From Streptomyces venezuelae (lineage in GTDB: Bacteria > Actinomycetota > Actinomycetes > Streptomycetales > Streptomycetaceae), in NCBI RefSeq assembly GCF_008642355.1, contig NZ_CP029193.1:5294001-5358000 (forward strand): a stretch of 64,000 nt of DNA, read 5' to 3'. The notes beneath the pieces were generated by a model, which was given only the letters and a program-made list of their open reading frames with translations, did no database searches and was not told the origin of the DNA. Shown piece by piece: positions 16,742 to 43,623 of the stretch. Positions within the stretch are counted from its first letter, which is position 1. Every line of letters begins with the position of its first letter. A program made the translations under genes and the position numbers.

Positions 16742-17419
16742 TCACCGCGCGGACGCCGACATCTGCATCACACCGGAGCGGTAGGCGAACGAGACCAGCT
16801 GGGCCCTGTCCTTGAGTTCGAGTTTGTTGCGCAGCCGGTAGACATGCGTGCGTACGGTGGCGATGCCGATGGCGAGATCGATGGCCACCTGCTCCGTCGA
16901 CAGGCCCTTCGCGATCAGCGACAGCACCTGGCGCTCCCGGGGCGTCAACGCGGCGGCGACAGGCTGCAGTTGACCCTCGGGCCTGCTGTCCTGCCGCCGG
17001 AACCAGTTGACCAGCCGCTCGGCGACCCTGGGTGCCAGCATCATCTGTCCTTGGGCCGCCGAGTGGACCGCCGAGACCAGCTCGGCGCGGTCCACCTCCT
17101 TGACGAGCAGACCGGTCACCCCCGCGTGCAGGACCGCGGAGATCACTTCGTCGCTGTCGTCCATCGTGAAGGCGACGACCTGAGGGGCGGGCGAGAACTT
17201 CTCCTCGTGGAGTCGCTTGACCATTTCCAGGCCGGAGATCCCCACCAGGTCGAGACTGGTGATGATGACGTGCGGACGGCGCGTACGCGCAATCATCATC
17301 GCGTGTATGCCGGAATCGGTTGAGTCGATGACCCGAATTCCTTCTTCGGAAGCCAGAATCGCACTGATTCCGTTCCGCACGACCGGCAATTGGTCGCAGA
17401 CGAGAACATCTATGGGCAT
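16742..17419 (-). CDS. LuxR/NarL-type response regulator with atypical receiver, candidate cluster regulator
   Basis: A 225-residue protein with an N-terminal receiver-like domain (1-120) and a C-terminal LuxR helix-turn-helix (LTPRERQVLSLIAKGLS through VRTHVYRLRNKL). Alignment by eye to NarL proteins puts Ser55 where the phospho-accepting Asp should be (PHVIITSLDLVGISG). Only one acidic residue remains in the N-terminal pocket (VCDQ, Asp9); the Thr and Lys positions are kept (FTMDD, LVKE). No kinase gene is nearby. This points to a regulator working without phosphorylation, perhaps by ligand binding. Its position at the edge of the NRPS cluster suggests a pathway-specific role. Confidence 0.85.
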   Translation of the reverse strand: MPIDVLVCDQLPVVRNGISAILASEEGIRVIDSTDSGIHAMMIARTRRPHVIITSLDLVGISGLEMVKRLHEEKFSPAPQVVAFTMDDSDEVISAVLHAGVTGLLVKEVDRAELVSAVHSAAQGQMMLAPRVAERLVNWFRRQDSRPEGQLQPVAAALTPRERQVLSLIAKGLSTEQVAIDLAIGIATVRTHVYRLRNKLELKDRAQLVSFAYRSGVMQMSASAR

Positions 17420-17678
17420 TCTCTATTTCGCCTCCCGTGAGTGGGTTCCACGGGAATACGCACGGCGTTGCCGGAATGACTACACGCACTGTTCGGGCAG
17501 CCGCACACGTCCCCAATGATTTCGCGGCTGTGTGCGGTGTGGCCCCCCGTGACCGAACTCCCAGTTTTCCCCCGTGTGCACCTTTCGTAACTGCAAAGGT
17601 GTGACAGGTTCAAGCATTGCGGAACGAAGTAGCCAGGTCAAGGCTTGACTTTCATGGAAGAGGGTTCGAAGGCGGCCT
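17420..17678. other. Upstream region of the LuxR-type regulator
   Basis: 259 bp between the regulator and the end of the MFS gene on the same strand. The base composition is more AT-rich than its surroundings, as expected for a promoter. I do not find the GTAA-N9-TTAC palindrome seen at the two other cluster promoters. Confidence 0.4.
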
Positions 17679-19022
17679 TCAGGGCGTGGAAGTGACGCTC
17701 GCCGACGGCTTGATCTCGCCCTCTTCCTCGTCCGCTCCGTGGGACTCGTGGACCGCCTCCAGGTTCCGCGCATCCCGCACGACGAACAACAGTGCAGGTG
17801 TGAGGAACATCCAGACCGCACCCACGACGAGAACCGAGGTGGCGGACGACAGTCCGCCGGCCGGTCCGACGAGGGCCTGCCCCACCGGCAGAAGGCCGAT
17901 GCTTCCCAGCCACTCGTACGAACTGACCCTGCTCATCGAGCCGATGGGGACATTCTGCTGCATTGCGGTCAGCGAAAAAACGTTGAACATGGAAAGACCG
18001 ATGTTGCTGATGACCGCGCAAACCGCGATCACCGGTACAGGTGCGACAAGTGCAAGGGCCAGGAGTTGCAATCCGTACAAGCCCAGGGGAATGAATGAGG
18101 CGCGCATGATGAAACGCGGTCGCATACGGAGCGCGATGACGCCGCCCAGTATGGATCCGAGTCCCGTGCACGCACTGATGATCGCCCACGCGGACGCGCC
18201 ACCGAGATCGTCACGGGCCACCGCGGGGCCGAACACCTGCCAGGCGGGCAGCACCAGGAGATGGAACGAGGCGGCCCAGGCGACCATCGTCCAGAGCCAG
18301 GTCCTGGAACGGAATTCCTCCCAGCCCAGCTTGAGATCCTGAAAGATCGACGACGACTTCTCGTCCTCGGTCCCGGCCTTCGGCTTGTCCGCGCCGGGAG
18401 CGAGACGGATGAGGAAGAGCGCCAGCGCGCTGACGGCGAAGGTCGCCGCGTCGAAGATCAGAGCCGCGCCCGGGGAGAAGGCCACCACGAGGACACCGGC
18501 GATCGCGGGACCGATGGTGTAGGCGGTGTTCTCGCTCAGGCCCATCAGGCCGTTCGCCCGCTGGAGTTGCGCGGGCTTGACCACTTCTGGCAGCAGACCC
18601 GTGGCGGCGGGATGGAAGAACGCGCCGGCGGAACCCGCGATCAACTGAAGGACGATCATGGACGGGAGCGACGCGGTGCCGGTGAGCAGCATGACGCCCT
18701 GGGCCAGCTGGGACAGGAAGCACGCCGCGTCGCACAGCACCATCAGGCTGCGCCGCGACATGCGGTCCGCGATCACCCCGCCGAGCAGGAGCAGCAGCAC
18801 CGTCGGAACCACGCGTGCGGCCAGCACCAGACCGAGGGCCGAGGCCGACTCGGTCAGTTCGAGCACGGCGAAGGCGAGTGCGACGGGCACGATGGCGTCG
18901 CCGATGATCGAGCTCGTCTGGCCTATGTAGAGGAGCCTGAACTCTCGTTGGCCGAGCAGCTCACGGAGTTCCCCCCGTCGTTTGTCGCGCCGTGACGTCG
19001 CCTTGTCGCTCGGAATGCTCAT
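17679..19022 (-). CDS. MFS transporter, probable exporter of the cluster product
   Basis: A 447-residue major facilitator of the MFS_3 type, related to enterobactin exporter-like and drug efflux proteins. The N-terminus is charged, then about 12 hydrophobic segments follow. The loop 2-3 motif is GGVIADRMSRRSLM, and the central cytoplasmic loop lies around residues 205-230 (KPKAGTEDEKSSS). Its ATG overlaps the preceding NRPS stop as ATGA, so it is translated with the biosynthetic operon. Export or self-resistance is inferred from this coupling. Confidence 0.9.
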   Translation of the reverse strand: MSIPSDKATSRRDKRRGELRELLGQREFRLLYIGQTSSIIGDAIVPVALAFAVLELTESASALGLVLAARVVPTVLLLLLGGVIADRMSRRSLMVLCDAACFLSQLAQGVMLLTGTASLPSMIVLQLIAGSAGAFFHPAATGLLPEVVKPAQLQRANGLMGLSENTAYTIGPAIAGVLVVAFSPGAALIFDAATFAVSALALFLIRLAPGADKPKAGTEDEKSSSIFQDLKLGWEEFRSRTWLWTMVAWAASFHLLVLPAWQVFGPAVARDDLGGASAWAIISACTGLGSILGGVIALRMRPRFIMRASFIPLGLYGLQLLALALVAPVPVIAVCAVISNIGLSMFNVFSLTAMQQNVPIGSMSRVSSYEWLGSIGLLPVGQALVGPAGGLSSATSVLVVGAVWMFLTPALLFVVRDARNLEAVHESHGADEEEGEIKPSASVTSTP

Positions 19023-20986
19023 GCCGTCCTTTTCTCGGGTGCCGTTTCGTGGGAACCGTCCGCATGCTCTTCCTCCGCGGTCAGGAGGGCCTCGAGTTCC
19101 GCGGGATCCATCTCCGCGACCAACGTCTCGGTCACGACTGCCGCGAGCTGTGCCACGGTGGGTGCTTCGAGCAGGGCACGGACCTGCAGCCGCAGTCCGA
19201 ACACGCGGCGCACCCTGGCCATGAGTCGAATGGCGAGCAGGGAGTCTCCGCCGATGTCGAAGAAACCGTCGTGGATGCCGATCCGCTGGACGCCGAGCAC
19301 CTCCGTGAACAGTTCGGCGACGCTCGCCTCGATGTCGTCGCGCGGCCCGTCGACCGGCCCCGCATCATGCCATGCCCGGATGGGCGTCGGGAGTTGGGCC
19401 GGGTCGAGCTTGCCGTTCGGTGTGGTGGGGAGCGCGGGGAGCGGAGTGATGGTGCTGGGGATCATGTGGGGCGGCAGGTGCTGCGCGAGATGGTCGTGCA
19501 GTTCTCTGTGCGTGGCGGGGGCGGCCGGGGTGGCGTCGGCGAGCACGGCGTACGCGGCGAGCTGGGGGTGCGCGGGGTCCGTGCGGTCGAGGGTGACGGC
19601 GGCCGCGTGGATGAACGGATGGGCGAGGAGGATGCGCTCGATCTCGCCGGGCTCGATGCGGAAGCCGCGGAGTTTGATCTGGTGGTCCGAACGGCCGTGG
19701 TGGTGGTACCGGCCGTCGGGGGTGCGGTGGGCCAGGTCACCGCTGCGGTAGAGGCGGCCGCCCGGCCGGTGCGGATCGGGCAGGAAACGGCCGGCGGTGA
19801 GGGCGGGGCGGTCCAGGTAGCCCTGGGCGACCCCGGGCCCGGAGACGTAGATCTCGGCGACGGTCAGGTCTTCGACGGGGTCGAGGTGCTCGTCGAGGAG
19901 GTGGAGCGTCAGGTCGGGCAGCGGCGTTCCGATGGGGCTGCCGTGGGGGTGCGGGTCGTGGATGTCGGCGTCGGTGACCCGGTGGTGCGTGACGTGCACG
20001 GTGGTCTCCGTGATGCCGTACATGTTGACGAGCTCGGGGGTGTCCGTGCCGTAGTGGGCGGCCCATTCGGCGAGCTGGGCGGGGTTCAGGGCCTCGCCGC
20101 CGAACACCACGTGCGTGAGGGAGGTGGGCGGGTGGCCCGCCCGCGCGGCGGCGTGGGTGAGATGGGCGAACGCCGTCGGGGTCTGGGAGAGCATGGTGAT
20201 GCTCTCGTCGCGAACCAGTCTCCACATGGCGTCGGGGTCGCGGGTGGTGGCGTACGGGATGACGTGGACGCGGCCGCCGTGCAGGAGGGCCCCGTAGATC
20301 TCCCAGACGGAGAAGTCGAAGGCGGCGGAGTGGAACATGCTCCACACGCCGTGCTCGTCGAAGCCGAACAGCCCGGCGCTGGTGGTGAAGAGCCGCAGGA
20401 GGTTGTCGTGGCTGACGCGGACGCCCTTGGGGCGGCCCGTGGAACCGGAGGTGTAGATCACGTACGCGGTGTCCTGGCCGGACACCCGCGCGCACCCGGT
20501 GAACGGCGTCTCCCCGACGCTCCCGTCGCCGTCCGTGCCCGGTGTACGCGCGTCCGCGGCGGGCAGCGGCTCGTCGAGGTCGACGAAGGCGCCCGCGGCG
20601 CCCGCCAGCTCCCCCGCGAGGCGGCCCGGCGCGGCCACCGCCACGCACTTGGCGTCCTCCACCGTCAGCCGCAGCCGCTCGCCCGGATACCCCGGGTCCA
20701 GCGGCACATAGCCCGCACCTGTCCGCAGCGTGGCGATCAGTGCGACGATCAGCCCCACGCCCCGGTCGGCGCAGACCCCCACGAGCGCTCCGCGCCGGGC
20801 GCCCGCCGCCCGCAGCTGCTCCGCCAGCGCACCGGAACGACGGTCCAGTTCGCGATACGTCAGGGACTCCACGCCGTCCGAGACGGCCTCTCGGTCCGGC
20901 CACCGGCTCACCACCCCGGCCAGCACCCCGCACACACCCGCCTGGGCGGTCGGCTCGTCCGCCGTATTCGTGGACGCGTTCAGCAC
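19019..20986 (-). CDS. NRPS A-PCP didomain, predicted to activate threonine
   Basis: A 655-residue NRPS protein with only adenylation and carrier domains. The start is GTG at 20986 with AAGGAGG just upstream. A-domain motifs are A3 YTSGSTGRPKG, A4 FDFSVWEI, A5 NMYGITETT, A8 LRGFRIEPGEIE and A10 NGKLD. Reading the specificity positions against GrsA gives DFWSVGMVHK, two changes from the classic threonine code DFWNIGMVHK. The carrier site is DIGGDSLLAI (Ser near 582). There is no condensation domain, so the loaded residue must be handed on in trans. It overlaps the methyltransferase gene by 7 bp and the MFS gene by 4 bp. Confidence 0.93.
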   Translation of the reverse strand: MLNASTNTADEPTAQAGVCGVLAGVVSRWPDREAVSDGVESLTYRELDRRSGALAEQLRAAGARRGALVGVCADRGVGLIVALIATLRTGAGYVPLDPGYPGERLRLTVEDAKCVAVAAPGRLAGELAGAAGAFVDLDEPLPAADARTPGTDGDGSVGETPFTGCARVSGQDTAYVIYTSGSTGRPKGVRVSHDNLLRLFTTSAGLFGFDEHGVWSMFHSAAFDFSVWEIYGALLHGGRVHVIPYATTRDPDAMWRLVRDESITMLSQTPTAFAHLTHAAARAGHPPTSLTHVVFGGEALNPAQLAEWAAHYGTDTPELVNMYGITETTVHVTHHRVTDADIHDPHPHGSPIGTPLPDLTLHLLDEHLDPVEDLTVAEIYVSGPGVAQGYLDRPALTAGRFLPDPHRPGGRLYRSGDLAHRTPDGRYHHHGRSDHQIKLRGFRIEPGEIERILLAHPFIHAAAVTLDRTDPAHPQLAAYAVLADATPAAPATHRELHDHLAQHLPPHMIPSTITPLPALPTTPNGKLDPAQLPTPIRAWHDAGPVDGPRDDIEASVAELFTEVLGVQRIGIHDGFFDIGGDSLLAIRLMARVRRVFGLRLQVRALLEAPTVAQLAAVVTETLVAEMDPAELEALLTAEEEHADGSHETAPEKRTA

Positions 20987-21786
20987 GGCTGGTCCTCCTT
21001 CCGGCCCTCCACCGTGGCCACCCACACGAAGTCCTCGGACTCCTCGGTGTAGGGACCGCGGTCGTAGTCGCCGTACTCGGCCTCGATCCGGAAGCCCGCC
21101 TGTTCGAGCAACTTCCGCATCTCCGGCGGGAACCGGTAGATGTTCTTGCGGATGTCGTGGCGCCGCTCGATCACGAGACCCTGCTCGTCCAGGACCTCGC
21201 TGACCCGGCGGCGGGTGATGGACTGCTTCTCGAAGTCGAAGGTGCTGTAGTCCCACAGGGCGATGCGCAGGCCCGTCCGCGGGTGCCGGATCTCGTCCAC
21301 GAAGAGCTGCTTCTTGTGGTAGTCCCTGAAGTCGGCCTCCTGGAATACCGGAACCCCGGCGACGAACCGGCCGCCGGGCTGCAGGTGGTCGCGGATCGTG
21401 GCGAGCGCCGCGAGCCAGTCGTCGTCGGTCTCCAGGTGGAACATCGTCTGCCCGCCCGCGAGCACGAGGTTGAAACGCTCGCCCAGGTCGAAGGAGCGCA
21501 GATCGGCCTCGACGAGCCGGACCCGCTCCTCGGGAACCCCGGACGCCGACAGGTTCGCGCGGCCCTGTTCCAGCATCGACGGCGAGCGGTCGACGCCCAC
21601 CGCACGGTCCACGTGCTCCATGCAGGGCAGCAGGACGCGTCCCGTGCCGCAGCCGATCTCCAGCAGAGGGCCACCGAACTCGGCCGCCATGGAGAGCAGG
21701 AAGGGCAGATCGAAGCTGTTCAGATCGGCCCAGAGGACGTCGTAGATTTCCGCTTCGTGGAGGTAGTCGTCTGTGGTGCCGGTCAC
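20980..21786 (-). CDS. SAM-dependent class I methyltransferase
   Basis: A 268-residue methyltransferase. Motif I is LLEIGCGTGRVLLP (about 40-53), followed by AVGVDRSPSMLEQGR and EADLRSF, the usual Rossmann-fold SAM-binding series. The GTG at 21786 overlaps the thioesterase stop as GTGA, which decides the start. The target atom cannot be told from sequence. Since it lies between the thioesterase and the A-PCP protein, it may act on the carrier-bound threonyl unit or on the finished peptide. Confidence 0.88.
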   Translation of the reverse strand: MTGTTDDYLHEAEIYDVLWADLNSFDLPFLLSMAAEFGGPLLEIGCGTGRVLLPCMEHVDRAVGVDRSPSMLEQGRANLSASGVPEERVRLVEADLRSFDLGERFNLVLAGGQTMFHLETDDDWLAALATIRDHLQPGGRFVAGVPVFQEADFRDYHKKQLFVDEIRHPRTGLRIALWDYSTFDFEKQSITRRRVSEVLDEQGLVIERRHDIRKNIYRFPPEMRKLLEQAGFRIEAEYGDYDRGPYTEESEDFVWVATVEGRKEDQPC

Positions 21787-22736
21787 CGGTGCTCCCAGAG
21801 GTCGTTGACGGAGTGCAGCAGAAGGCGGGCGACGTCGCGCACGGTCCCACCTGTCAGCAGGCTGAAGTGGTCGCCGGGCAGCGGATGCGGGACGAGCGGG
21901 GCTCCCGTGCTGAGCGGGCGCCACATCCCGGGGCCGACGCCGGACGCCGTCGCGTACAGGAGCGCCACCGGCCCCGCGTACTCGCCCGGCGCGTGGCGCT
22001 GCATGGCGCGGGTCATGGCCTCGAACACCGTGTACCGGCGCCGGAGTTCGTCCACTCCGAGGGCGAGGTCGAAGCCCCGCTCGGCCAGCTCGTGGGACGC
22101 CCGGTCCAGGGCTTCGGGCACCGGGAGGCGCCAGAGGGTGTCCGGCAGCGACGCCACGTCGACGTCGGCGCCGCCGGATCCGACCAGATCGTCGATGTAG
22201 GCGCGCAGGGTCTCCGCGGTCGACCATGCTCCGGTGCCGGGCGGCCAGGGAGCGGAATCGATCAGGGTGACCGGCACGGGCCGCTCGACGCCGGCCGGGT
22301 GGCGGCGTGCCATCTCGTGGGCGACCAGACCGCCGAAGGACCAGCCGCCGAGCAGGCCGGGACGCCGGACCCCGCGTCCGGCGAGGAGTTCCAGGTAGTG
22401 CTCCGCCAACTCCGCGACGGTACGGCCGTTTTCAGCGGATGGTGAGGTGTCGGCGGCGATGGCCCACACCGGGCGCGGTCCGTCGAGCAGCCGGGCCAGG
22501 GGCCCGTAACAGAAGACGCCGCCGCCGATGGGATGAACGAGCACGACCGGATCGGTGCGACCGGGCGCCCCCTCGCGGAGGACCACGACACCGTCGCCCA
22601 CGTCGCCCACGTCGCCCGCCCGCGCGGGCCGGGCGTTCGCCCGCTCCCGGAGCAGCCGCAGGTACAGCTCGCGTCGCGCCGGGGACAGCGAGTCGATCCG
22701 GGCGTCCGGGGAAGGAGTGCCGCCGCCCCGGGTCAC
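21783..22736 (-). CDS. Thioesterase / acyltransferase-like alpha/beta hydrolase
   Basis: A 317-residue stand-alone protein of the NRPS thioesterase type. The N-terminus (IDSLSPARRELYLRLLRERA) resembles the linker helices that precede NRPS domains. The nucleophile elbow is GGWSFGG and the C-terminal His is in PGDHFSLL. Unlike type II editing thioesterases (about 250 residues), it is closer to type I releasing domains. It could release a product or move an aminoacyl group between carrier proteins; SyrC-type transferases normally have Cys instead of Ser. It overlaps both neighbours as GTGA. Confidence 0.85.
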   Translation of the reverse strand: MTRGGGTPSPDARIDSLSPARRELYLRLLRERANARPARAGDVGDVGDGVVVLREGAPGRTDPVVLVHPIGGGVFCYGPLARLLDGPRPVWAIAADTSPSAENGRTVAELAEHYLELLAGRGVRRPGLLGGWSFGGLVAHEMARRHPAGVERPVPVTLIDSAPWPPGTGAWSTAETLRAYIDDLVGSGGADVDVASLPDTLWRLPVPEALDRASHELAERGFDLALGVDELRRRYTVFEAMTRAMQRHAPGEYAGPVALLYATASGVGPGMWRPLSTGAPLVPHPLPGDHFSLLTGGTVRDVARLLLHSVNDLWEHR

Positions 22737-23500
22737 ACGGCCCCCCGAACCGCTCCTCGGGGCCGCAGCCGCCGCTCGTGGAGGTAGGTGTAGAAGGGCA
22801 GTTCGGCCCGGTAGTGCTCGGCGAGCACGGGATGGTTGTCGACGGTGTCGGGGTAGTTCTTGCGGCTCTTCACGAAACCGTTGGTGGTGCTCGCGTCCTG
22901 GTGCCAGCGCGCCGTGAGCTTCCAGTCGTCCGGCATTCCCGGGGACCAGGACAGCGACGTGGCGTCGAAGGGCAGACCCACGCTCTCGCAGTACGCCCGA
23001 ACCGTGTCCTCCGGACGTTCGATCAGGTCGTCGGAGTCCACCACGACCGGTTCGGCGCCCTGAGCCTCCGTGACGGCCAGGAACAGCTCGTGCAGCCTGG
23101 CGAACCCCACCTCGTCACGCCGAAGCTCAGGATTCAGCGCGAAATGCGAGGCGATGACTTCCTTCGGGTCCCTGATGATGAACGTATGGCACACGTTCCG
23201 CAGGAAATCCTGATCGGCGAGCACGCCTGGATAGTGGAAATCCGTGGTGTCCTTGAAGAACAGCCGTGATTTTCCGCCCAGCGTCGTGATGGCGTCGATC
23301 AGCTCCGCCTCGGAGTGCACCGTACGGTCCTCGATCTCCGCCGATCCGAAGTCGGCGAGACGGGAGAACGGCTCGTGCACGGCCGCGACGTCGTCCCTCC
23401 CCATCATCATGCGCAGGAACGCGGTCGAACGGGACCTGGGCGCACTCCACAGGGCGATGACCTGCTCGCCCGAACTCCCGCCGCGCGGTGAGTCGTTCAT
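22733..23500 (-). CDS. PAPS-dependent sulfotransferase family protein
   Basis: A 255-residue P-loop sulfotransferase. The 5'-phosphosulfate loop is WSAPRSRSTAFLRMMM near the N-terminus (about residues 18-33), and the 3'-phosphate region fits TFIIRDPKEVIASH. It would move sulfate from PAPS to a hydroxyl or amine. It is the first gene of the minus-strand operon and is preceded by a palindrome in the divergent promoter. The cluster also holds cysC-cysD-cysN, which make PAPS, and the two together strengthen the call. The acceptor is unknown. Confidence 0.85.
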   Translation of the reverse strand: MNDSPRGGSSGEQVIALWSAPRSRSTAFLRMMMGRDDVAAVHEPFSRLADFGSAEIEDRTVHSEAELIDAITTLGGKSRLFFKDTTDFHYPGVLADQDFLRNVCHTFIIRDPKEVIASHFALNPELRRDEVGFARLHELFLAVTEAQGAEPVVVDSDDLIERPEDTVRAYCESVGLPFDATSLSWSPGMPDDWKLTARWHQDASTTNGFVKSRKNYPDTVDNHPVLAEHYRAELPFYTYLHERRLRPRGAVRGAV

Positions 23501-23595
23501 GTCCGGCTCCTCTTCCTCGAGGAGGCAGACTAATCTCGGGACCCGTCCGCGGAATACTGAATCCCTTTACGCAGTCGCTCATCATTGGTCCACCG

Positions 23596-23706: not shown

Positions 23707-26700
23707 ATGAGCGAGCTCGTCAAGCGGCTGGCCAAACTGCCCGAGGGGCGCAGGGCCGCCTTCCTTGCGCAGCTCCGCTCGGGGGCGGGGAAGCCCGCAC
23801 AGGACACACTCGTCCCGCGCGACGCGACAGGACCCGCCCGGCTGTCCTACGCCCAGGAGACCCTCTGGTTCATCGACCGGCTGGCACCGGGCCGCGCCAC
23901 CTACAACGTCGCGAGCGGCTACCGGATCCGGGGAGCACTCGACACGGACGCCCTGGGCCGGGCCCTGCGGACCCTGGTCGCGCGCCACGAGACGCTGCGC
24001 ACCGCGCTCGCCGACACGCACACCGGTGTCGTCCAGAGCGTGCTGGCCACGGACGACCCGCGCGTCCGCGACGCCGTGACGGTGCACGACCTGTCCGCCG
24101 CCGGGGAGGAGGCCCGCGAGGAGACCGCGCGGAGCTTCGCCGCCGAGCGGGCCCGCGTCCCCTTCGTCCTCACCGAGGGGCCGCTGTGGCGCGCGGATCT
24201 GGCCCGCCTGGGCGACGACGACCACCTCCTCGTCTTCGTCGTCCACCACGTGGTGTTCGACGGCTGGTCCTCCGGAGTGTTCAGCAAGGAGCTCTCGGCC
24301 GCCTACGCCGCGGAGACCACAGGACAGGCCGCGGCCCTTGAGCCGCTGCCCGTCCAGTACGGCGACTACGCGGAATGGCAGCGCCGCCGGCTGACCGGCG
24401 ACACCTACGACGAGCTGGCCGCGTACTGGCGCGAGACCCTCGCGGGCGCCTCACACCTGGAGCTGCCCGCCGACCGGCCGAGGCCACCCGAGGTGACGTA
24501 CGACGGCACGTACCTGCGCAGGAACCTCGCACCCGAACTGACCGCCTCGGTTGCCGGACTCGCACGCTCCCACGGCGTCACTCCGTACGTGGTCCACCTC
24601 GCCGCCTTCCTGCTGCTCATGCACCGCCACACCGGCCAGGACGACCTGGTCGTCGGCACGCCCACGGCCAACCGCGACCAGCTCGAACTGGAGGAGCTGA
24701 TCGGCTTCTTCGTGAACATGCTGCCGCTGCGCACCGACCTGAAGGGCGACCCGAGCTTCCGGACGCTGCTCGACCGGGTCGGTGACGTGACGCGCGAGGC
24801 GTTCGCCCACGGCGAGCTGCCCTTCGAGAAGATCGTGGAAGTGGCCCGCCCCCGGCGCGACCCGTCGCGTTCCCCGCTGTTCGGCGTCGTGTTCGCGCTG
24901 CACAACACGGCGGACGACGGCCTCTCCCTGGGCGGACTCGACGTCCGACAGGAGAGCCTCGACGCGGGCACCTCACGCTTCGAGCTGAGCTGGAACGTCT
25001 CCGTACGCCCGCAAGGCACCGTGCTGGAGGCGGAGTTCAACACCGACCTGCTCGACCCGGAGACCGTGGAGGCCCTCCTCGTCCAGTACGAGCACGTCCT
25101 GACGGCGGTGCTCGCGGACCCGGAACTGACCGTGACCGGGGCACCGCTGCTCACGGCAGAGGACCGCGAGGACATGCTGACGCGGTGGAACGGCCCCGCG
25201 CTTCCCGTCCCCGACCTGTCCGTTCCCGCGGCGTTCGAGCGGCGGGTGCGGGCCGCTCCCCACACCGTGGCCCTGGTCGCGGGCGCGGAACGCCTCACGT
25301 ACGACGAACTGGACCGGCGGGCCAACCGGCTCGCGCGTGTGCTCGTCGCCCGCGGCGCCGCACCCGGCGAGCGGGTGGCGCTGTGCCTGCGCCGCACCCC
25401 CGACCTCGTCGTGAGCATCCTCGCCGTGCTGAAGACGGGCGCCGCCTACGTGCCCGTCGACCCCGGCTATCCCACGGCCCGCATGGCGGCCATCCTCGAC
25501 GACGCGACGCCGGTCACGGTCGTCGCGCACGCGGAGTGCGCCGCCGGCCTGCCGGGCGACCGCGGTGACGTGCTTGTCCTCGACGAGCAGCCACAGGCCA
25601 GCCAGGACGACTCCGGTCTCGGCATCGCCGTGTCCCCGCGCGACGTGGCCTACGTCCTGTACACCTCCGGGACGACCGGCCGCCCCAAGGGCGTACTCAT
25701 CGAGCACCACTCGGTGGTGGGGTTCGTCGAGGCCATGCGGGACCTCTTCGACCTCACCCCCGACGACCGCGTGCTCGGTTACGCGTCGGCGAACTTCGAC
25801 GTCTCCGTCGGCGAGATGTTCAACGCCCTGCTGACCGGGGCGCAGTTGCACCTGGTCCCCGACGAGGTGCGACTCGATGTCATCCTTCTCCAGGAGCTCC
25901 TGGAGAAGGAGCGGATCAGCCTCGTGGACCTGCCGCCCGCCGTACTGGCCCTGCTGGAGCCCGACCGGCTGCCCGACCTGAGGATCGTCTTCGTGGGCGG
26001 CGAGGCGTTCCCCGGCGAACTCGTCAACCGCTGGAACCGCGACGGCCACCGCTTCTTCAACGGCTACGGCCCCACCGAGTGCACCGTCACCATGGTCGTG
26101 CACGAGTGCCCCGGCCAGTGGGACGCGTCCCCGCCCATCGGCCTGCCCATCGCCAACCACGTGGCCCACGTCGTGGACGAGCGGCTGGAACCCGTGCCGT
26201 TCGGCGTGGTCGGCGAGCTGCTCGTCGGCGGCGAGGGACTGACCCGCGGATACCTGGGCGCGCCGGAGCTCACCCGGGAGAAGGTGATCGCCGACCCCTT
26301 CGGCAGCACCGCCGACGGCCGCCTCTACCACACCGGCGACCTGGTCCGCAGGCGCCGGGACGGCAGCCTCGTCTTCGTGGGCCGCAAGGACCAGCAGGTC
26401 AAGATCCGCGGCCTGCGGATCGAGCTCGGCGACGTGGAGGCCGCGACCGCGACCTGCCCCGGAGTCGGCCAGGTGGCCGTGGTGCCGTGGACGGACCCGC
26501 ACGGCGAGCGGCACCTGGTGGCCTACACCGCCCCGGCGGCGGGAGCGGCCGTCGACCCGGCCGCGGTACGGGCCCACACCGCCGCCCAACTCCCCGCCTA
26601 CATGGTGCCGTCGTACTTCGTCGTCCTGCCGACCCTGCCGCTCACCGTCAGCGGCAAGGTCGACCACCGGGCCCTGCCCGCACCGGATCCGGACGCGGGG

Positions 26701-29340: not shown

Positions 29341-29592
29341 ATGCCCGAACCCGTCGCAGCCGACGCCCCGCAGTCGGAGAGCGAGCCGCACTACCGCGTG
29401 GTCGTCAACGACGAGGAGCAGTACTCGATCTGGCCGCTCACCCGTGACGTGCCCGCGGGCTGGCACTCGCTGGAGGTCAGCGGCCCGGAGTCGCGGTGCC
29501 TCGACCACATCGCCGAGGTGTGGACCGACATGCGCCCCCTCAGCCTGCGCCAGGACACCGCCGCCGGGGCCCCCGCGGTCCGGCACGCGTGA
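29341..29592 (+). CDS. MbtH-like adenylation-domain chaperone
   Basis: An 83-residue MbtH-family protein that binds and activates adenylation domains. The family signature is visible: [23 protein letters not shown], then [18 protein letters not shown] short N-terminal extension replaces the usual NPFDD start. It overlaps the next gene as GTGA. The cluster has four A domains, any of which could need it. Confidence 0.93.
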
Positions 29593-33526: not shown

Positions 33527-33538
33527 GGGGTGGGGGAC

Positions 33539-36243: not shown

Positions 36244-37422
36244 TCAGGCCGCGTGCACGGGCTGGGTGATCCAGTGGTGGCCGCCGTGGGTGAAGCGCGT
36301 CTGACGGGCCGTGCCCGGGGCCTCCGTGAGCTCAAACAGGCGTGTGACCTGGATGTTCCCTCGGTACAGGGTCGCCTCCACAGTGCCGCTGACGCCGCCC
36401 GCGAGGAGGTCGACGGCGCTTGCCGCGGCCCGGCCGTACGTGTCGTGGAAGCGGCCTTCGTAGACGGCGGTCCCCAGCTCGGTGGAGAGCCTGCGGAAGA
36501 GCTGGGACGACGGCTTGTCCAGGCAGGCGTGGTAGAGCGCGTCCAGGCACGGGCTCAGGACGTCGAGCCCGGGAGCCTCGTAGACGCCCCGGCACTTGGT
36601 TCCGTTGACACGGTTCTCGACCACCGTGCGCAGTGAGACGCCGTGTCGGCCCCCCAGCGCGTTGGCCCGCTGGACGGCGTCGAGCGGGGAGACCCCGACC
36701 CCGTCCATCGCGACCGGCCGGCCCCCCTCGAACCGTACGGTGAACGTCTCCGGTTCGGCGGCCGCGGCCTGGGGCCATACCGTCATCAGAGGTGCAACGG
36801 AGGCGGGCGGGTTGCCCAGGTCCTCCAGCAGATCGCTCTCGTGCGAGCAGCCGGCGAGGTTGCCGTCGATCGAGTAGTCGGCCCAGTCCGTGAGCTCCTT
36901 GGGGTAGCCGAGCTCCCTCAGGTACGTGCTCATGGCGGCGCGGGTCGGGAAGCGCTCCAGCATCCACGACGCCGTCCACGGCGTGAAGACCGTGAGGTCA
37001 GGGGTGAAGCGGGCGGCGTAGCGGGCGAACCGCGACTGATCGTTGCCGCCTCCCACGCACCCGTGGGCGAGTATGTCGCACCCTTCCTCGCGCAGCACGG
37101 GACCGAGGCCGGCCACCAGGACCGCACGCGCGGCACCCGTCGTGTTCCAGTACCCGCCCTCGTACGTGGCCTGGTACGTCACCAGGTCCAGCGCCATGTC
37201 CGCCATCTCCGCACGGAGGTCGACGGTCCTGGTCTTCAGGCCCAGTCCTGCGAGGTGGCGGGCGAGTTCGCCGGGGGGCAGCGGCGCCCGCTGGCCGATG
37301 TCCGCGACGTAGCAGGTGACGTCGACGTCGTTCGCGGCGAGCCAGGCCGCGACGGCGGTGCCGGAAAGCCCGCCGGACGTGAACAGACCCACCCGCAGAC
37401 CCTTGAGCTGTTTCAAATCCAT
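36244..37422 (-). CDS. Argininosuccinate synthase-like ligase with altered active site
   Basis: A 392-residue ArgG-fold protein. Recognisable family positions are FTSGGLSGTAVA (ATP loop), HGCVGGGNDQSRFA, YSIDGNLAGCSHES and the C-terminal GRFHDTYGRAAAS. Key residues differ from the housekeeping enzyme, as I recall its motifs: the Asp of SGGLDTS is Ser, the TGKGNDQ segment reads VGGGNDQ, and the Arg of WGRSIE is Cys. It is therefore probably not the arginine-pathway enzyme but a relative adapted to another substrate, or one without adenylating activity. It stands alone on its strand, with its promoter shared with the reductase-ended NRPS. Confidence 0.85.
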   Translation of the reverse strand: MDLKQLKGLRVGLFTSGGLSGTAVAAWLAANDVDVTCYVADIGQRAPLPPGELARHLAGLGLKTRTVDLRAEMADMALDLVTYQATYEGGYWNTTGAARAVLVAGLGPVLREEGCDILAHGCVGGGNDQSRFARYAARFTPDLTVFTPWTASWMLERFPTRAAMSTYLRELGYPKELTDWADYSIDGNLAGCSHESDLLEDLGNPPASVAPLMTVWPQAAAAEPETFTVRFEGGRPVAMDGVGVSPLDAVQRANALGGRHGVSLRTVVENRVNGTKCRGVYEAPGLDVLSPCLDALYHACLDKPSSQLFRRLSTELGTAVYEGRFHDTYGRAAASAVDLLAGGVSGTVEATLYRGNIQVTRLFELTEAPGTARQTRFTHGGHHWITQPVHAA

Positions 37423-37709: not shown

Positions 37710-40700
37710 ATGTCCGAGGCGTATCGAATCCGGTCGCAGAGTGGCGTCGCGGGACAGTCCTTCGACCACCCGGACCACCATACGGTTCTGCAACTCTTCG
37801 AAACGCGGGTCGCGCTGACGCCCGAGGCACCGGCCGCCACGCACGGCGCGGTGACCCTCTCGTACCGGGAGCTCGACGAGCGGGCGAACGCCGTCGCCCA
37901 CGTGCTCCACGAGCACGGTGTCGGACGCGGGGACTTCGTGCCGCTCGTCGTCGACGGCGGCCTGGAGCTGCTTCTGTCGATGGTCGCCTCGATGAAGCTC
38001 GCCGCGGCGTTCGTGCCCGTCGACGACACCAGCCCCGTCGAACGCGTGGTCCGCATGATCGCCACGCTCGACGCCAAGGTGGTGCTGCGCTCCCAGCGGG
38101 CACCCGAACCTCCGGTCGACGTCCCGGTGCTGACCGTCCACCCCCTGGACCTCGCACCCCGCGCGGAGCCCCCGTCTGTTCCCGCCGCCACCCTGGACGA
38201 CGTCGTGTACGGCTTCTACACGTCGGGCTCCACCGGGTTGCCCAAATGCACCGTCAACGTCCACCGGGGGCTCCGCAACCGCTTCGCGTACATGAGCCGA
38301 CGGCTCAGTTCCCGCGCCGACGAGGTGGTGCTGCAGAACAGCAGGCACCAGTTCGACTCGTCCCTCTGGCAGATGCTGTGGCCCCTCACGACCGGCAGCC
38401 AGGTGGTGATCCCCGAGCGCTCGGGCATCCTCGACCTGGAGGCGACCGTGGACGTCATCCACCGGCACGCCGTCACCACCACCGACTTCGTCCCCTCCAT
38501 CTTCAACACCCTGGTGGAGCTGCTGCACGCGGAACCCGACCTCATCCGGCGCCTCTCGTCGCTGCGCCGCCTCCTCATCGGGGGCGAGGAGATGACCGCG
38601 GACGCCGTGCGCGCCTTCCGGTCGTACCTGCCGGACGTGTCGATCATCAACACCTACGGCCCGACCGAGGCCTCGATCGGCAGCGTCTTCCACGTCGTGT
38701 GCGACACCGACCGCGACCCCGTCCCGATCGGCACCCCCATCGACAACACCTATGCCGTGATCGTGGACGACCTCATGCGGCCGGTCCCCGGGGGAGAGAC
38801 CGGCGAGATCTGCATCGGCGGCGAGTGCCTCGGCCTCGGCTACGTCAGGGACCCGGGGAAGACCGCACGCGTGTTTGTGCCCAACCCCTTCCCGGAGATA
38901 CCGGGCGACCGCCTCTACCGCACCGGCGATCTCGGCTACCGGCGTCCGGACGGGCTCCTGCAGTTCGTCGGGCGCCGCGACCACCAGGTCAAGATCGGCG
39001 GAGTGCGCATCGAACTGTCCGAGGTGGAGGCGGGGCTGCTGCGTCATCCGCAGGTGCGCGAGGCCAAGGTCATCGTCCATGGCGAGGGCGACCTCCGCGC
39101 GCTGGTCGCCTTCGTCACCGTACGGTCCCCGGAAACGGGTCCGACGGAGCTCAGGGAGCACGCGCGCGCCCAGTTGCCGCCCGCACTGGTGCCGCGTCGG
39201 CACGTCGTCCTGCAGTCCATGCCGCTGACGCCGAACGGCAAGGCCGACCGCAAGGAACTCCAGCGGCTCGCCGCGGAGTCCCCCGCGCAGCCCGCGGCGG
39301 AGGCGGGGCCGGGGCAGCACGACGGGGAACACGGGCCCGGGACGCCGGAACAGTCGACGGCGGCCGAGATCCGCGCCATCTGGCAGGACTTCCTGCCCGT
39401 CAAGAACGTCGACCCCGGGGCCGACTTCTTCGACCTGGGTGGCGATTCGCTCGGCGCGCAGCGCCTCGCCGTGGCACTGACCGAGCGCTTCGGCATCCGT
39501 GTGTCGGTCCGGGACGTCTTCGAGCGGCCGACCGCGCCCCAACTGGCCGCCCTGCTCGCCGGCGGAGCGCAGTCACCGCGCGCCGACGCACCGGAGGAGC
39601 AAGCGGCCCGGGAGGGCTTGGCGCTTCTGGCGCCCGACACGGTGCTTCCCGAGGACATCGTGGCCCTCGGTACCCCTTGCGGACCGTCGGAACCGCGGGA
39701 GGTGCTGCTCACCGGCGCCACGGGATTCGTCGGCGGTCAGCTCCTGCACGACCTGCTCGAGCGCACCACGGCCGACGTGCACTGCCTGGTGCGCGCCGAG
39801 AACCCCGAGACCGCCCGCCACCGCGTCGTGGCCAACCTGCGGGAGTACCGCCTCTGGGACGACGCGTACGAGGACCGCATCAAGGCCGTCCCGGGAGATC
39901 TGCGCCTTCCCCGACTGGGTCTCACGGAAGCGGAGTTCACGGATCTCGCACGACACGCCGACACCATCGTCCACAACGGCGCGATGGTCCACCTCGCACG
40001 CGGCTACCAGGCCCACCGGGGCGCCAACGTCGCCGGCACCCTGGAGATCCTCCGGCTCACCTCGGCCCACCGCCGCAAGCAACTGCACTTCATCTCCACC
40101 CTGGGCGTGTTCCCGCACGGCGAGTACGGGACACGGCTGATCCCCGAAGGCCCCGTGCACGACGACCTCGTCCCCGACGACGGCTACAGCCAGTCCAAAT
40201 GGGTGGCCGAGCGTCTTCTCGCCGAAGCGGCCGACCGCGGACTCGACATCACCGTCCACCGCTTCGGGGAGGTGACCCCGCACTCCACGACGGGCGTCCC
40301 CAGCCGCCGGGGCCTGCACGACCTCCTCGTCAAGGCGTGGCTGCAGACGGGCATGTCGTTCGCCAGCCCCATAGCCACCGACTACACGCCGGTGGACTGG
40401 GTGAGCGCGCTGGTCGTCGCCGCCGTCCGGCGGGGGGAGAGGGGCTGGCTGCACGCGGTACAGCCGCACGCCGTCGGATTCGACGCGCTGATGGCGGTGT
40501 TCCAGCGGGAGTTCGGGCTCACCGAGGTGCCGTACTCCGTGTTCCACGAACAGCTGCGCCGCAGCTCCGCCGAGGCACCGGACGACCACGACCTGGTGCG
40601 GGTCCTCGCGCTGCTCCCTTCGCCCGCCGACGACGAAGCACACGTCAAGGAGAGTCTGGCCGAGCTCTTCCGGCAGGACCCGGCGGAGGTCGCCAGGGAA

Positions 40701-40802
40701 CGGGCCGGGGAGCTGGCCGCCGCGTCCGGCATGACGTGGCCGCCCGTCGGCGAGGAACTCTTCCGCCGGTACGCCGCCTACTACCGGTCGGTGGGGTGGT
40801 GA
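37710..40802 (+). CDS. NRPS A-PCP-reductase termination module
   Basis: A 1030-residue NRPS with adenylation (about 20-525), carrier (FFDLGGDSLGAQ, Ser near 575) and a C-terminal thioester reductase (about 660-1030). The reductase has the NADPH loop LLTGATGFVGGQLL and the Tyr-Lys pair in YSQSKWVAE, so the peptide should be released reductively as an aldehyde or alcohol. A4 is QFDSSLWQM and the code reads DSWDLGTIGK, unmatched; an Asp in the pocket suits a basic substrate. A3 is YTSGSTGLPKC, with Cys after Lys. The start is ATG 37710 with AAGGGGG upstream. It overlaps cysC as GTGA. Confidence 0.94.
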   Translation: MSEAYRIRSQSGVAGQSFDHPDHHTVLQLFETRVALTPEAPAATHGAVTLSYRELDERANAVAHVLHEHGVGRGDFVPLVVDGGLELLLSMVASMKLAAAFVPVDDTSPVERVVRMIATLDAKVVLRSQRAPEPPVDVPVLTVHPLDLAPRAEPPSVPAATLDDVVYGFYTSGSTGLPKCTVNVHRGLRNRFAYMSRRLSSRADEVVLQNSRHQFDSSLWQMLWPLTTGSQVVIPERSGILDLEATVDVIHRHAVTTTDFVPSIFNTLVELLHAEPDLIRRLSSLRRLLIGGEEMTADAVRAFRSYLPDVSIINTYGPTEASIGSVFHVVCDTDRDPVPIGTPIDNTYAVIVDDLMRPVPGGETGEICIGGECLGLGYVRDPGKTARVFVPNPFPEIPGDRLYRTGDLGYRRPDGLLQFVGRRDHQVKIGGVRIELSEVEAGLLRHPQVREAKVIVHGEGDLRALVAFVTVRSPETGPTELREHARAQLPPALVPRRHVVLQSMPLTPNGKADRKELQRLAAESPAQPAAEAGPGQHDGEHGPGTPEQSTAAEIRAIWQDFLPVKNVDPGADFFDLGGDSLGAQRLAVALTERFGIRVSVRDVFERPTAPQLAALLAGGAQSPRADAPEEQAAREGLALLAPDTVLPEDIVALGTPCGPSEPREVLLTGATGFVGGQLLHDLLERTTADVHCLVRAENPETARHRVVANLREYRLWDDAYEDRIKAVPGDLRLPRLGLTEAEFTDLARHADTIVHNGAMVHLARGYQAHRGANVAGTLEILRLTSAHRRKQLHFISTLGVFPHGEYGTRLIPEGPVHDDLVPDDGYSQSKWVAERLLAEAADRGLDITVHRFGEVTPHSTTGVPSRRGLHDLLVKAWLQTGMSFASPIATDYTPVDWVSALVVAAVRRGERGWLHAVQPHAVGFDALMAVFQREFGLTEVPYSVFHEQLRRSSAEAPDDHDLVRVLALLPSPADDEAHVKESLAELFRQDPAEVARERAGELAAASGMTWPPVGEELFRRYAAYYRSVGW

Positions 40803-41377
40803 CCGCGATGCCCGGCACCGGGACCACAGCCGCGGGGCCGGCGACCGGGGGAACCACCCTCTGGCTCACCGGGCTGCCGAGCGCGGGAAAGACCACCCTG
40901 GCGTACGGGCTGGCCGCGCGGCTGCGCGCCGAGGGCCGCCGGGTCGAGGTGCTCGACGGTGACGAGGTCCGCTCGTTCCTCTCGGCGGGCCTCGGCTTCG
41001 GCCGGGCGGACCGGGAGACCCATGTGCGGCGCGTCGGCTTCGTCGCCGAACTCCTCGCCTCGCACGGCGTACTGGTCCTCGTGCCGGTGATCGCCCCGTA
41101 CGCCGACGGAAGGGCGGCGGTGCGCCGCCACCACGAGAAGGAAGGCACCCGCTACCTGGAGGTGCACGTCGCGACACCGGTCGAGGTGTGCTCGGCGCGG
41201 GACGTGAAGGGTCTCTACGCCCGGCAGGCGGCCGGTGAGATCTCCGGTCTGACCGGGGTCGACGACCCGTACGAGGTGCCGGAGTCACCTCAGCTGCGGA
41301 TCGAGGCCCACGAGCAGTCGGTGGAGGAGTCGGTGGGGGCGCTGTACGCACTGCTGGGTGAGAGAGGTTTGCTGTGA
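40799..41377 (+). CDS. cysC: Adenylylsulfate (APS) kinase
   Basis: A 192-residue kinase that phosphorylates APS to PAPS, the sulfate donor for sulfotransferases. The P-loop is TGLPSAGKTTLA, followed by LDGDEVRSFLSAGLGF and RRVGFVAELLASHG, all typical of APS kinase. The GTG at 40799 overlaps the NRPS stop; an ATG at 40808 is possible. It overlaps cysD by 4 bp. Direct coupling to an NRPS gene links PAPS synthesis to this cluster. Confidence 0.94.
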   Translation: MTAMPGTGTTAAGPATGGTTLWLTGLPSAGKTTLAYGLAARLRAEGRRVEVLDGDEVRSFLSAGLGFGRADRETHVRRVGFVAELLASHGVLVLVPVIAPYADGRAAVRRHHEKEGTRYLEVHVATPVEVCSARDVKGLYARQAAGEISGLTGVDDPYEVPESPQLRIEAHEQSVEESVGALYALLGERGLL

Positions 41378-42330
41378 CGACCGCGACGACCGCGACGACC
41401 GTGTCCGAGGGGGCCGACAGCCGGGGCGGTCACCCTTTCCGGCTCTCGCACCTGGACGTGCTGGAGTCGGAGGCGGTGCACATCTTCCGCGAGGTGGCGG
41501 GTGAGTTCGAGAACCCGGTGCTGCTGTTCTCGGGCGGCAAGGACTCGATCGTGATGCTGCACCTGGCGCTGAAGGCGTTCGCCCCCGCGGCGATCCCCTT
41601 CTCGCTGCTGCACGTCGACACGGGACACAACTTCCCCGAGGTGCTGGAGTACCGCGACCGGGTGGTGGCCCGGCACGGGCTGCGGCTGCATGTCGCCTCC
41701 GTGCAGGACTACATCGACCGCGGAGTGCTGCGCGAGCGCCCGGACGGCACCCGCAACCCCCTCCAGACGCTGCCGCTGACGGAGAAGATCCAGAGCGAGC
41801 GGTTCGACGCGGTCTTCGGCGGGGGCCGCCGGGACGAGGAGAAGGCGCGGGCGAAGGAGCGGGTGTTCTCGCTGCGCGACGAGTTCTCGCAGTGGGACCC
41901 GCGCCGCCAGCGCCCCGAGCTGTGGCAGCTCTACAACGGCCGCCACGCGCCCGGCGAACACGTGCGCGTGTTCCCGTTGTCGAACTGGACCGAGCTGGAC
42001 GTGTGGCAGTACATCGCCCGCGAGGACATCGAGCTGCCCGGGATCTACTTCGCCCACGAGCGCGAGGTGTTCGAGCGTGCGGGGATGTGGCTGACGGCGG
42101 GTGAGTGGGGCGGGCCGAAGGCGGGTGAGACGGTCGAGACGCGGCTCGTGCGGTACCGCACGGTCGGTGACATGTCCTGCACCGGCGCCGTCGACTCCGA
42201 CGCGACGACGCTGGACGCCGTCATCACCGAGATCGCCGCGTCCCGGCTCACCGAGCGCGGCGCGACCCGCGCCGACGACAAGATGTCCGAGGCCGCGATG
42301 GAAGACCGCAAGCGCGAGGGGTACTTCTAA
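41374..42330 (+). CDS. cysD: Sulfate adenylyltransferase subunit 2
   Basis: A 318-residue PP-loop subunit of ATP sulfurylase, which makes APS from ATP and sulfate with CysN. The PP motif is LFSGGKDSIV, and the family region GGGRRDEEKARAKER is present. The ending EDRKREGYF is typical of CysD. The start is GTG, overlapping cysC. An Ala/Thr-rich N-terminal tail of about 20 residues is extra to the core. CysN follows with no gap. Confidence 0.96.
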   Translation: MTTATTATTVSEGADSRGGHPFRLSHLDVLESEAVHIFREVAGEFENPVLLFSGGKDSIVMLHLALKAFAPAAIPFSLLHVDTGHNFPEVLEYRDRVVARHGLRLHVASVQDYIDRGVLRERPDGTRNPLQTLPLTEKIQSERFDAVFGGGRRDEEKARAKERVFSLRDEFSQWDPRRQRPELWQLYNGRHAPGEHVRVFPLSNWTELDVWQYIAREDIELPGIYFAHEREVFERAGMWLTAGEWGGPKAGETVETRLVRYRTVGDMSCTGAVDSDATTLDAVITEIAASRLTERGATRADDKMSEAAMEDRKREGYF

Positions 42331-43623
42331 ATGACCATCAGCACCGAGCAGCCCGCCCGCCGGGCGGCCCCCGCGGAGGCAACCCTGCTGCGGTTCGCCA
42401 CGGCGGGCTCCGTCGACGACGGCAAGTCCACCCTGGTGGGACGGCTCCTGCACGACTCCAAGTCGGTCTTCGCCGACCAGTTGGAGGCGGTGGAGCAGGT
42501 CTCCGCGAGCCGCGGCCAGGACGTGCCCGACCTCGCGCTGCTCACCGACGGGCTGCGTGCGGAGCGGGAGCAGGGCATCACCATCGACGTGGCGTACCGC
42601 TACTTCGCCACGGCCCGGCGCCGGTTCATCCTGGCCGACACCCCCGGCCACGTGCAGTACACCCGGAACATGGTCACCGGTGCCTCCACGGCCGAGCTGA
42701 CGGTGATCCTGGTGGACGCCCGCCACGGCGTCGTCGAGCAGACCCGCAGGCATGCCGCCATCGCCGCGCTGCTGGGCGTGCCGCACGTGGTCCTCGCCGT
42801 GAACAAGATGGACCTCGTCGACTACGCCGAGCCCGTCTTCGCCGGCATCGCTGAGACGTTCACCGCGTACGCCCTGGGGCTCGGCGTCCCGGAGATCACC
42901 GCGATCCCGATCTCGGCGCTCGCCGGCGACAACGTGGTCGAGCCGTCCGCCGCCATGGACTGGTACGGCGGTCCGACCGTCCTCGAACATTTGGAATCCG
43001 TGCCGACCGGACGTGAGTCGGCCGCCCGCCACGCCCGCCTGCCCGTGCAGGTCGTGATCAGGCCGCGCACCCCGGAGCACCCGGACTACCGGGGGTACGC
43101 GGGTCAGATCGCCACCGGCACCTTCCGCGTCGGCGACGAGGTGAAGGTCCTCCCCTCCGGCATCGGATCGCGCATCAGCGGCATCGACCTGCTCGGTGTG
43201 GGCGTCGACGTCGCAAGCGCCCCGCAGTCCGTGACGCTCCTCCTGGAGGACGACATCGACATCTCCCGCGGCGATCTGATCGTGCCCGCGCACGACGTCC
43301 CCGCGCTCGGCCGGAACATCGAGGCGACCGTCTGCCACCTGGCCGACACCCCGCTCACCGCGGGCCGGCGGGTCCTGCTCAAGCACACCACCCGCACGGT
43401 CAAGGCGACTGTCGAGGAGATCACCTCACGGCTCGCCCTGGACGACCTGACGCACCACGCCGACCCTGGGCAGCTGGTGGCGAACGACATCGGCCGGGTA
43501 CGGGTGCGCACCGCCGAACCAGTCGCCCTCGACGCCTACGCGGACTCCCGGCACACCGGCTCCTTCCTGCTGATCGACCCGGCCGACGGGACCACGCTGG
43601 CGGCGGGCATCGTCACGGACTGA
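42331..43623 (+). CDS. cysN: Sulfate adenylyltransferase subunit 1 (GTPase)
   Basis: A 430-residue regulatory GTPase of ATP sulfurylase, related to EF-Tu. G motifs are GSVDDGKST (G1), DTPGHVQY (G3) and NKMD (G4), followed by two beta-barrel domains (from about residue 225). There is no C-terminal APS kinase fusion, which agrees with the separate cysC. It begins right after the cysD stop and is the last gene of the operon. No PAPS reductase or sulfite reductase genes follow, so the operon looks devoted to PAPS supply. Confidence 0.96.
   Translation: MTISTEQPARRAAPAEATLLRFATAGSVDDGKSTLVGRLLHDSKSVFADQLEAVEQVSASRGQDVPDLALLTDGLRAEREQGITIDVAYRYFATARRRFILADTPGHVQYTRNMVTGASTAELTVILVDARHGVVEQTRRHAAIAALLGVPHVVLAVNKMDLVDYAEPVFAGIAETFTAYALGLGVPEITAIPISALAGDNVVEPSAAMDWYGGPTVLEHLESVPTGRESAARHARLPVQVVIRPRTPEHPDYRGYAGQIATGTFRVGDEVKVLPSGIGSRISGIDLLGVGVDVASAPQSVTLLLEDDIDISRGDLIVPAHDVPALGRNIEATVCHLADTPLTAGRRVLLKHTTRTVKATVEEITSRLALDDLTHHADPGQLVANDIGRVRVRTAEPVALDAYADSRHTGSFLLIDPADGTTLAAGIVTD

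Follow-up and report, generated by a model that had tools for sequence, protein, structure and literature searches.

What kind of product is assembled by a gene cluster that joins nonribosomal peptide synthetase (NRPS) modules to sulfation genes, a reductase and a ligase resembling argininosuccinate synthase (ArgG)? The question is raised by an 18-gene cluster at positions 16742..43623 of a 64,000-nucleotide stretch of the Streptomyces venezuelae genome (G000:C1:5294001-5358000 of a single-contig genome of 8,018,484 bases), hereafter the window. A preliminary description read this DNA as an NRPS cluster for a sulfated, reductively released peptide. All functions that it named are encoded there: a sulfotransferase (ST), cysC-cysD-cysN, four adenylation (A) domains, an NRPS protein that ends in a reductase (A-T-R; T, thiolation; R, reductase), a methyltransferase (MT), a double acyl-CoA dehydrogenase, the ArgG-like ligase, an aldo/keto reductase (AKR), MbtH, two thioesterases (TE), a major facilitator superfamily (MFS) exporter and a LuxR-type regulator. 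Sequence comparisons indicate that the cluster very probably contains a ring-forming core of the ficellomycin and azinomycin type that is fed by a different supply line.

A predicted ring-forming core of the ficellomycin type

The double acyl-CoA dehydrogenase of the preliminary description matched one structure in both halves. Its N-terminal half aligned to chain 8hk0_A with an E value of 7.5e-117 and 393.7 bits (next match in the Protein Data Bank, PDB, 144 bits), and its C-terminal half aligned to 8hk0_C with 114.8 bits (next match, 77.9 bits). The title of 8hk0 names the Fic32-33 complex of S. ficellus, and the same entry ranked first in a structure comparison of the oxidase, with the others within 2 Z. 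As the clear best PDB match, it suggests that the protein is a fusion of both halves of the ficellomycin ring oxidase Fic32-33.

Using an alignment of 14 oxidases as the query, we scanned genome contigs and obtained 30 loci (oxidase loci); the same scan with a single oxidase sequence found no relative. The window proteins were compared with 55 loci. Of the 30 oxidase loci, 26 had an A domain with the signature DVFDFGGVTK next to the oxidase; in L042 and L043 this domain had no matched condensation (C) domain beside it. The window and locus L016 carry DVGDFGGVTK, which agrees at nine of ten positions, and in the tree the window C-A-T protein was nearest to L016 and then to genome G148. No such signature was found within the stretches covered of L036, L039 and L041. 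In L036 (Streptomyces sp. SPB162) and L039 (S. rishiriensis), the oxidase adjoins large NRPS genes; the stretches covered held no ST match, and AziU3 was not found genome-wide. Because L026 (Streptomyces niger) encodes a ligase of the LysX type, an M20 peptidase and relatives of AziU3 (5.1e-73) and AziU2 (3.6e-48), we took the oxidase loci to represent pathways of the ficellomycin (fic), azinomycin (azi) and vazabitide (vzb) kind.

Our comparison with these pathways, which are of the 1-azabicyclo[3.1.0]hexane type, used loci resembling them and the PDB chains of Fic32-33, AziU3 and AziU2 rather than the deposited clusters. Like them, the window has a Fic32-33-type oxidase that works together with an NRPS, an A-domain signature of the same family and a related ST with a supply of 3'-phosphoadenosine-5'-phosphosulfate (PAPS), for which cysC, cysD and cysN lie within the cluster. 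In two trees, the window ST grouped with the L016 ST and a Kitasatospora member (97/84 in the first, 85/87 in the second), close to other ficellomycin-type STs. A search of the ST sequence against the PDB returned only noise, mostly antibody chains. The thioesterase at 21783..22736 is related by Pfam to the TE domain fused to the C-A-T protein in L026. A core made of the C-A-T protein, the Fic32-33-type oxidase, a TE, the ST and the PAPS supply is well supported by these sequence comparisons. A monobactam or sulfazecin type was dropped, because the core oxidase points to ficellomycin.

A probably different supply line

We searched 13 genomes for two genes of the known precursor route. LysX was matched in 11 of them, all but the window genome and G223, which contains L016; AziU3 was matched in eight, with no match in the window genome, G223, G227, G228 or G229. 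Neither LysX nor an AziU3 relative was found in the window's whole genome. LysX, LysZ, M20, transketolase, AziU3 and AziU2 had no match in window 8001-52000 (E 1e-5), the interval to which the search for LysZ, M20, transketolase and AziU2 was confined, and the LysW tail motif was not found across the window. Whole-genome searches for LysX were negative in G000, G223, G148, G891, G952, G986 and G990. AziU3 had no match in the stretches around the ArgG clusters, where alone it was sought, of G148, G250, G427 and the genomes of G671's family (f19). It is well supported by these searches that LysX and an aziridine synthase are missing from the window genome and AziU2 and the other carrier-pathway genes tried from the region, and that the A-T-R protein, the AKR and the ArgG-like ligase are there instead. 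The window further differs from the fic/azi/vzb kind in the one changed position of the C-A-T code and in its extra A-T, A-T-C, T-C and MT genes.

The ArgG-like protein scored 238.6 bits on the NCBIfam ArgG equivalog, below the cutoff of 268.2, and up to 181.9 bits against canonical ArgG structures. We aligned it with the best 120 of 260 hits (n = 121) and compared this family with eight canonical copies, one of which shows gaps or irregular residues at the majority of sites and should be counted as missing. The ATP loop reads SGGLS in 116/121 members and SGGLD in 8/8 canonical copies. At the aspartate site, Thr is replaced by Val in all 121 (T119V; Thr in seven of the eight canonical copies, one gap), and a nearby Lys by Gly in 118 of the 121 (K121G). 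Tyr87, Asn123, Arg127, Ser180, Glu270 and Tyr282, six citrulline-site residues common to this family and ArgG, are kept in 121/121; we number the residues, and assign them to the citrulline and aspartate sites, after human ASS1. The ligase named in the preliminary description thus belongs to the ArgG sequence family, but it is not an ordinary argininosuccinate synthase, and its site changes set it in a distinct family. Changes at three conserved sites led us to reject canonical arginine supply as the role of this family. Most simply, the enzyme would be a ligase that still activates a ureido group but takes an amine other than aspartate.

The terminal reductase of the A-T-R protein has the motifs TGATGF and YSQSK and scored 275.2 bits on Thioester-redct TIGR01746 (cutoff 213.35). 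Its A-domain code, DSWDLGTIGK, is identical in all 13 genomes with the ArgG-type set and occurs in 110 of the 120 homologs listed out of 610, the window's own protein being one of the 110. Relatives from Sorangium and a Scytonema metagenome-assembled genome (P0299, P0315) are among the homologs listed, and they are not among the ten listed that depart from this code. In the window, the A-T-R gene overlaps cysC by 4 bp, and in the homologs P0274 (named Amycolatopsis aidingensis) and P0284 the A-T-R protein is fused to a domain of adenosine 5'-phosphosulfate (APS) kinase. Overlap and fusions therefore tie reduction to sulfation, which strengthens the earlier view of a single NRPS cluster in which the two are linked. 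In G250 and G427, the A-T-R gene adjoins ST, AKR and ArgG, and no other gene in 19.9 kb matched an NRPS protein of the window, so that the A-T-R protein may act as a stand-alone amino-acid reductase. This arrangement displaced reductive release of a peptide as the leading reading; probably, the A-T-R protein and the AKR make an amino alcohol rather than release a peptide.

Distribution of the gene set

We analyzed how widely the ArgG-like gene occurs. It was present in 4/392 genomes of the genus (E 1e-90) and 2/394 of the class (E 1e-85), the window's own included in both counts, and in 8/250 genomes of f19, with G671 also among the class hits. The surroundings of the gene were compared in a total of 14 ArgG-type genomes, G223 and G227 included. 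ArgG, AKR, ST and A-T-R occurred together in 13 of the 14 loci within the stretches covered, the ST lying some kilobases from ArgG in the window and L016.

The fullest counterpart was in Streptomyces sp. NRRL WC-3618 (L016 and L091), which has counterparts of 17 of the 18 window genes with 47-79% identity in the best segments; the gene set of the window is therefore not a matter of chance. Both clusters share the signatures DVGDFGGVTK and DSWDLGTIGK, whereas gene order is partly rearranged and the A-T-C protein, despite the same domain order, has only 28% identity and the signature DAWYMGAVIK in place of DVENVGAITK. Streptomyces sp. NPDC029674, attributed by protein name, has related oxidase (74%), ArgG (83%) and A-T-R (74%) proteins on a contig of 550,135 bases.

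The f19 clusters (for example G920 and G986) are compact and consist of cysDN-ST-AKR-ArgG and A-T-R-MbtH-C-A-T-TE-oxidase. Their proteins have 28-72% identity to those of the window, and no Thr-type A domain or MT match was found in the stretches covered. The C-A-T code is DVSDFGGVTK in 8/8, and both oxidase subunits were matched in 8/8, the second weakly (36-46%). cysC is present in six of the eight; the contigs of G671 and G990 stop at that point. Near the A-T-R set of G250 lie a regulator, a LysE-type transporter and an MFS transporter, and the counterparts in G427 are 90-96% identical. The LysE-type exporter gene (L097 11806-12432 in G250; also in G427) would fit a basic amino-acid-like product.

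Proposed pathway and alternatives

These comparisons suggest a pathway in five steps. The A-T-R protein would load an amino acid and, with the AKR, reduce it to a 1,2-amino alcohol, as its domain content and the gene sets without other NRPS matches indicate. The ArgG-like ligase may adenylate the ureido group of a citrulline-like substrate and join it to a non-aspartate amine, plausibly the amino alcohol of the first step, giving a guanidine. The ST could activate the hydroxyl, after which an internal nitrogen would displace the sulfate and close a ring. Judging by the characterised Fic32-33 relative, the resulting basic amino acid, loaded on the C-A-T protein, would be alpha,beta-desaturated by the oxidase, and addition of an internal nitrogen to the beta carbon would form the second ring. 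The A-T, A-T-C and T-C proteins may build the remainder, and the exporter would secrete the product. A modified threonine in the product is possible, because the A-T signature DFWSVGMVHK reads as what we take to be a Thr code and the A-T and MT genes share an overlap.

The fate of the sulfate separates this pathway from the preliminary description. In azinomycin biosynthesis, a hydroxyl is sulfated and a neighbouring amine displaces the sulfate to form an aziridine (PMC9570651). Sulfate is the leaving group in the nearest characterised relatives (PMC9570651, PMC11880133), and a sulfated product therefore no longer stands as the leading reading. By analogy, we slightly favour sulfate as a transient handle that would not be part of the product. 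Taken as a whole, with its core, supply line and chemistry, the proposed explanation appears to be the best one, and we would put it just on the probable side. We are much more hesitant about its boldest parts: the citrulline-guanidine ring is a tentative suggestion, and it seems similarly doubtful that the cluster encodes a route to bicyclic guanidine amino acids free of carrier proteins and aziridine synthase, in which an ArgG-derived ligase and loss of sulfate would give a 2-aminoimidazoline and the oxidase a second ring on the NRPS.

Several observations weigh against this explanation. Support for the window branch was moderate in the oxidase tree (88/79) and was 95/69 in the second ST tree. 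Monophyly of the STs from ArgG-type loci was rejected (AU p 0.032), so the gene set did not travel as one unit, and a joint movement of A-T-R, AKR, ArgG and ST is not upheld for the ST. G148 has the unchanged code DVFDFGGVTK in a genome without LysX, and the code alone therefore does not tell of the precursor. As AziU3 and AziU2 are missing, there is no known catalyst here for displacement of the sulfate, which could then be kept. Positions 92 and 189, presumably also of the citrulline site, vary in the ArgG-like family (189: Ser 67, Ala 54), as they do in the canonical copies, and Trp at A-T-R code position 239 suggests a small substrate if the rule we assume holds. We know of no metabolite, substrate or activity for any family member.

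Others concern the exchange of supply lines. LysX-like matches, weak at 30-32%, were found in G250 and G427, and four of the eight f19 genomes (G671, G815, G853 and G920) have a LysX match of 60% on a contig apart from the ArgG cluster, with relatives of LysZ, M20, transketolase and cysDN around these copies. ArgG-like and AziU3 genes occurred together in 0/13 genomes (Fisher p 0.035), and ArgG-like and LysX genes in 1/13 (p 0.038), but these exclusions are weak evidence because the genomes are few and not independent. G227 is an exception: it combines ArgG with carrier-pathway genes and lacks both AKR and A-T-R, so replacement of the carrier pathway is not strict.

Two observations touch these genomes. 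The f19 loci L130-L133 are separate carrier-pathway sets with their own cysD and cysN, a transketolase and an acyl-CoA dehydrogenase relative. In G227 (Pseudosporangium ferrugineum; L093 10447-11607 and L094), the ArgG-like gene stands with LysX, LysZ, M20 and transketolase, with no AKR or A-T-R in the stretch covered and no AziU3 in the genome; a hybrid pathway is possible.

Other explanations of the cluster deserve weight. In the preliminary description, the A-T-R protein is the last module and releases an aldehyde, which the AKR converts to an alcohol that is O-sulfated and keeps its sulfate. The reductase motifs, the T-C and A-T-C proteins that could pass a chain to A-T-R, the overlap with cysC, the fusions in P0274 and P0284 and the lack of an aziridine synthase for removing sulfate all agree with it. 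The sets in G250 and G427, where A-T-R, ST, AKR and ArgG occur without another window-NRPS match in 19.9 kb, do not, nor does the grouping of the ST with relatives from pathways that eliminate sulfate (PMC9570651, PMC11880133); we regard this model as possible but not likely. In a different variant, the A-T-R protein and the AKR would reduce one carboxylate of a diamino diacid, for example diaminopimelate, the ST would activate the new hydroxyl to give an azabicyclic amino acid as in ficellomycin, and ArgG would then add a guanidine. The shared A-domain signature family, the Fic32-33-type oxidase, the ST grouping and the unchanged signature of G148 without LysX speak for it, as does the amino alcohol in which we take the precursor of the known ficellomycin-kind pathways to end. 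It is nonetheless unlikely, since the Trp at position 239 would be expected, by the same assumed rule, to shorten the pocket, AziU3 is absent from the genome and AziU3 and AziU2 from the region, and the company of ArgG and A-T-R in 13/14 loci would be left unexplained.

The ArgG-like protein could also convert an amide to a nitrile or an amidine, with the rest as in the preliminary description. A weak match to the PDB nitrile synthetases 9lei and 9leh (E 4.5e-4, 22.7 bits) makes such activity conceivable, and PMC13060819 cites work on an ArgG-like nitrile synthetase. Canonical ArgG structures match far better (181.9 bits). The invariance of the six residues that we assign to the citrulline site also argues against this role, which we regard as very improbable. 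Finally, the product may already be described in subscription journals or MIBiG, that is, beyond the open-licence text to which our literature search was limited, without a reference collection of biosynthetic gene clusters. Within these bounds, no whole-cluster match was found, in keeping with the preliminary description, to which no characterised cluster with this set was familiar; titles and abstract beginnings gave no published cluster with this gene set, which is no proof that none exists. We consider a prior description improbable. The proposed explanation, a ficellomycin-type core with an apparently different supply line, is the one that we retain.

Gene inventory and flanks

The genes of the cluster are listed in Table 1. 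In the minus-strand run of the MFS, A-T, MT, TE and ST genes, neighbours overlap by 4-7 bp, and spacing in the plus-strand run of A-T-R, cysC, cysD and cysN is -4, -4 and 0 bp. The NRPS proteins are A-T (minus strand), C-A-T, A-T-C, T-C and A-T-R, with the motif HHxxxDG in all three C domains.

Table 1 Genes of the cluster, with positions in the window
Feature	Position	Strand	Basis
LuxR-type response regulator	16742..17419	-	Pfam Response_reg + GerE; 47-53% counterparts in 19/30 oxidase loci, 59% in L091
MFS exporter	17679..19022	-	Pfam MFS_1/MFS_3; 68% in L016
NRPS A-T, signature DFWSVGMVHK	19019..20986	-	Pfam, A-domain code; 62% in L016
S-adenosylmethionine (SAM) methyltransferase, class I	20980..21786	-	Pfam Methyltransf_25; 65% in L016
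Thioesterase (GxSxG)	21783..22736	-	Pfam, motif; 28-48% counterparts in ArgG-type loci
PAPS-type sulfotransferase (Sulfotransfer_5)	22733..23500	-	Pfam; two trees
NRPS C-A-T, signature DVGDFGGVTK	23707..27054	+	Pfam, code, tree
Predicted fused two-subunit flavin oxidase, Fic32-Fic33 type, 737 aa	27087..29300	+	8hk0 top match for both halves
MbtH-like protein	29341..29592	+	Pfam
Type II thioesterase	29589..30368	+	Pfam; GHSMG motif
NRPS A-T-C, signature DVENVGAITK	30365..33526	+	Pfam, code
NRPS T-C, no own A domain	33530..35128	+	Pfam; 54% in L016
Aldo/keto reductase (AKR)	35166..36149	+	Pfam; 65-77% in 12 other ArgG-type loci
ArgG-like ligase, altered ATP loop and aspartate site	36244..37422	-	Family scores, site alignment
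NRPS A-T-R, signature DSWDLGTIGK	37710..40802	+	Pfam, codes, reductase motifs
cysC, APS kinase	40799..41377	+	Pfam; A-T-R-APS kinase fusions P0274, P0284
cysD, ATP sulfurylase subunit	41374..42330	+	Pfam PAPS_reduct-type domain, gene order
cysN, ATP sulfurylase subunit	42331..43623	+	Pfam GTP_EFTU, GTP-eEF1A_C, gene order

The flanks on both sides look unrelated to the cluster. Upstream lies a set resembling an oligopeptide transporter, judged by eye, and downstream are a PALP enzyme, a subtilase and a GntR regulator. The PALP-family enzyme, which is pyridoxal phosphate (PLP)-dependent by family, is encoded at 44076-45221, directly after cysN on the opposite strand, and a 126-amino-acid protein without a Pfam match lies between the two (43644-44024). 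At 56496-60627, a gene of bpMoxR, the MoxR-vWA-beta-propeller ternary system, adjoins vWA genes.

Implications

To our knowledge, amino-group-carrier proteins feed the characterised pathways that use an oxidase of this type. The cluster described here and its relatives suggest that two or more unrelated precursor routes lead into one and the same ring-forming core, and that activation by sulfation may not be confined to the making of aziridines. A coherent family of ArgG-like ligases, its nucleophile site changed, emerges as well, as does a family of A-T-R proteins with one near-invariant signature; both can be tested directly in vitro. New reactive or guanidine-bearing peptides can reasonably be sought in clusters built on this core.

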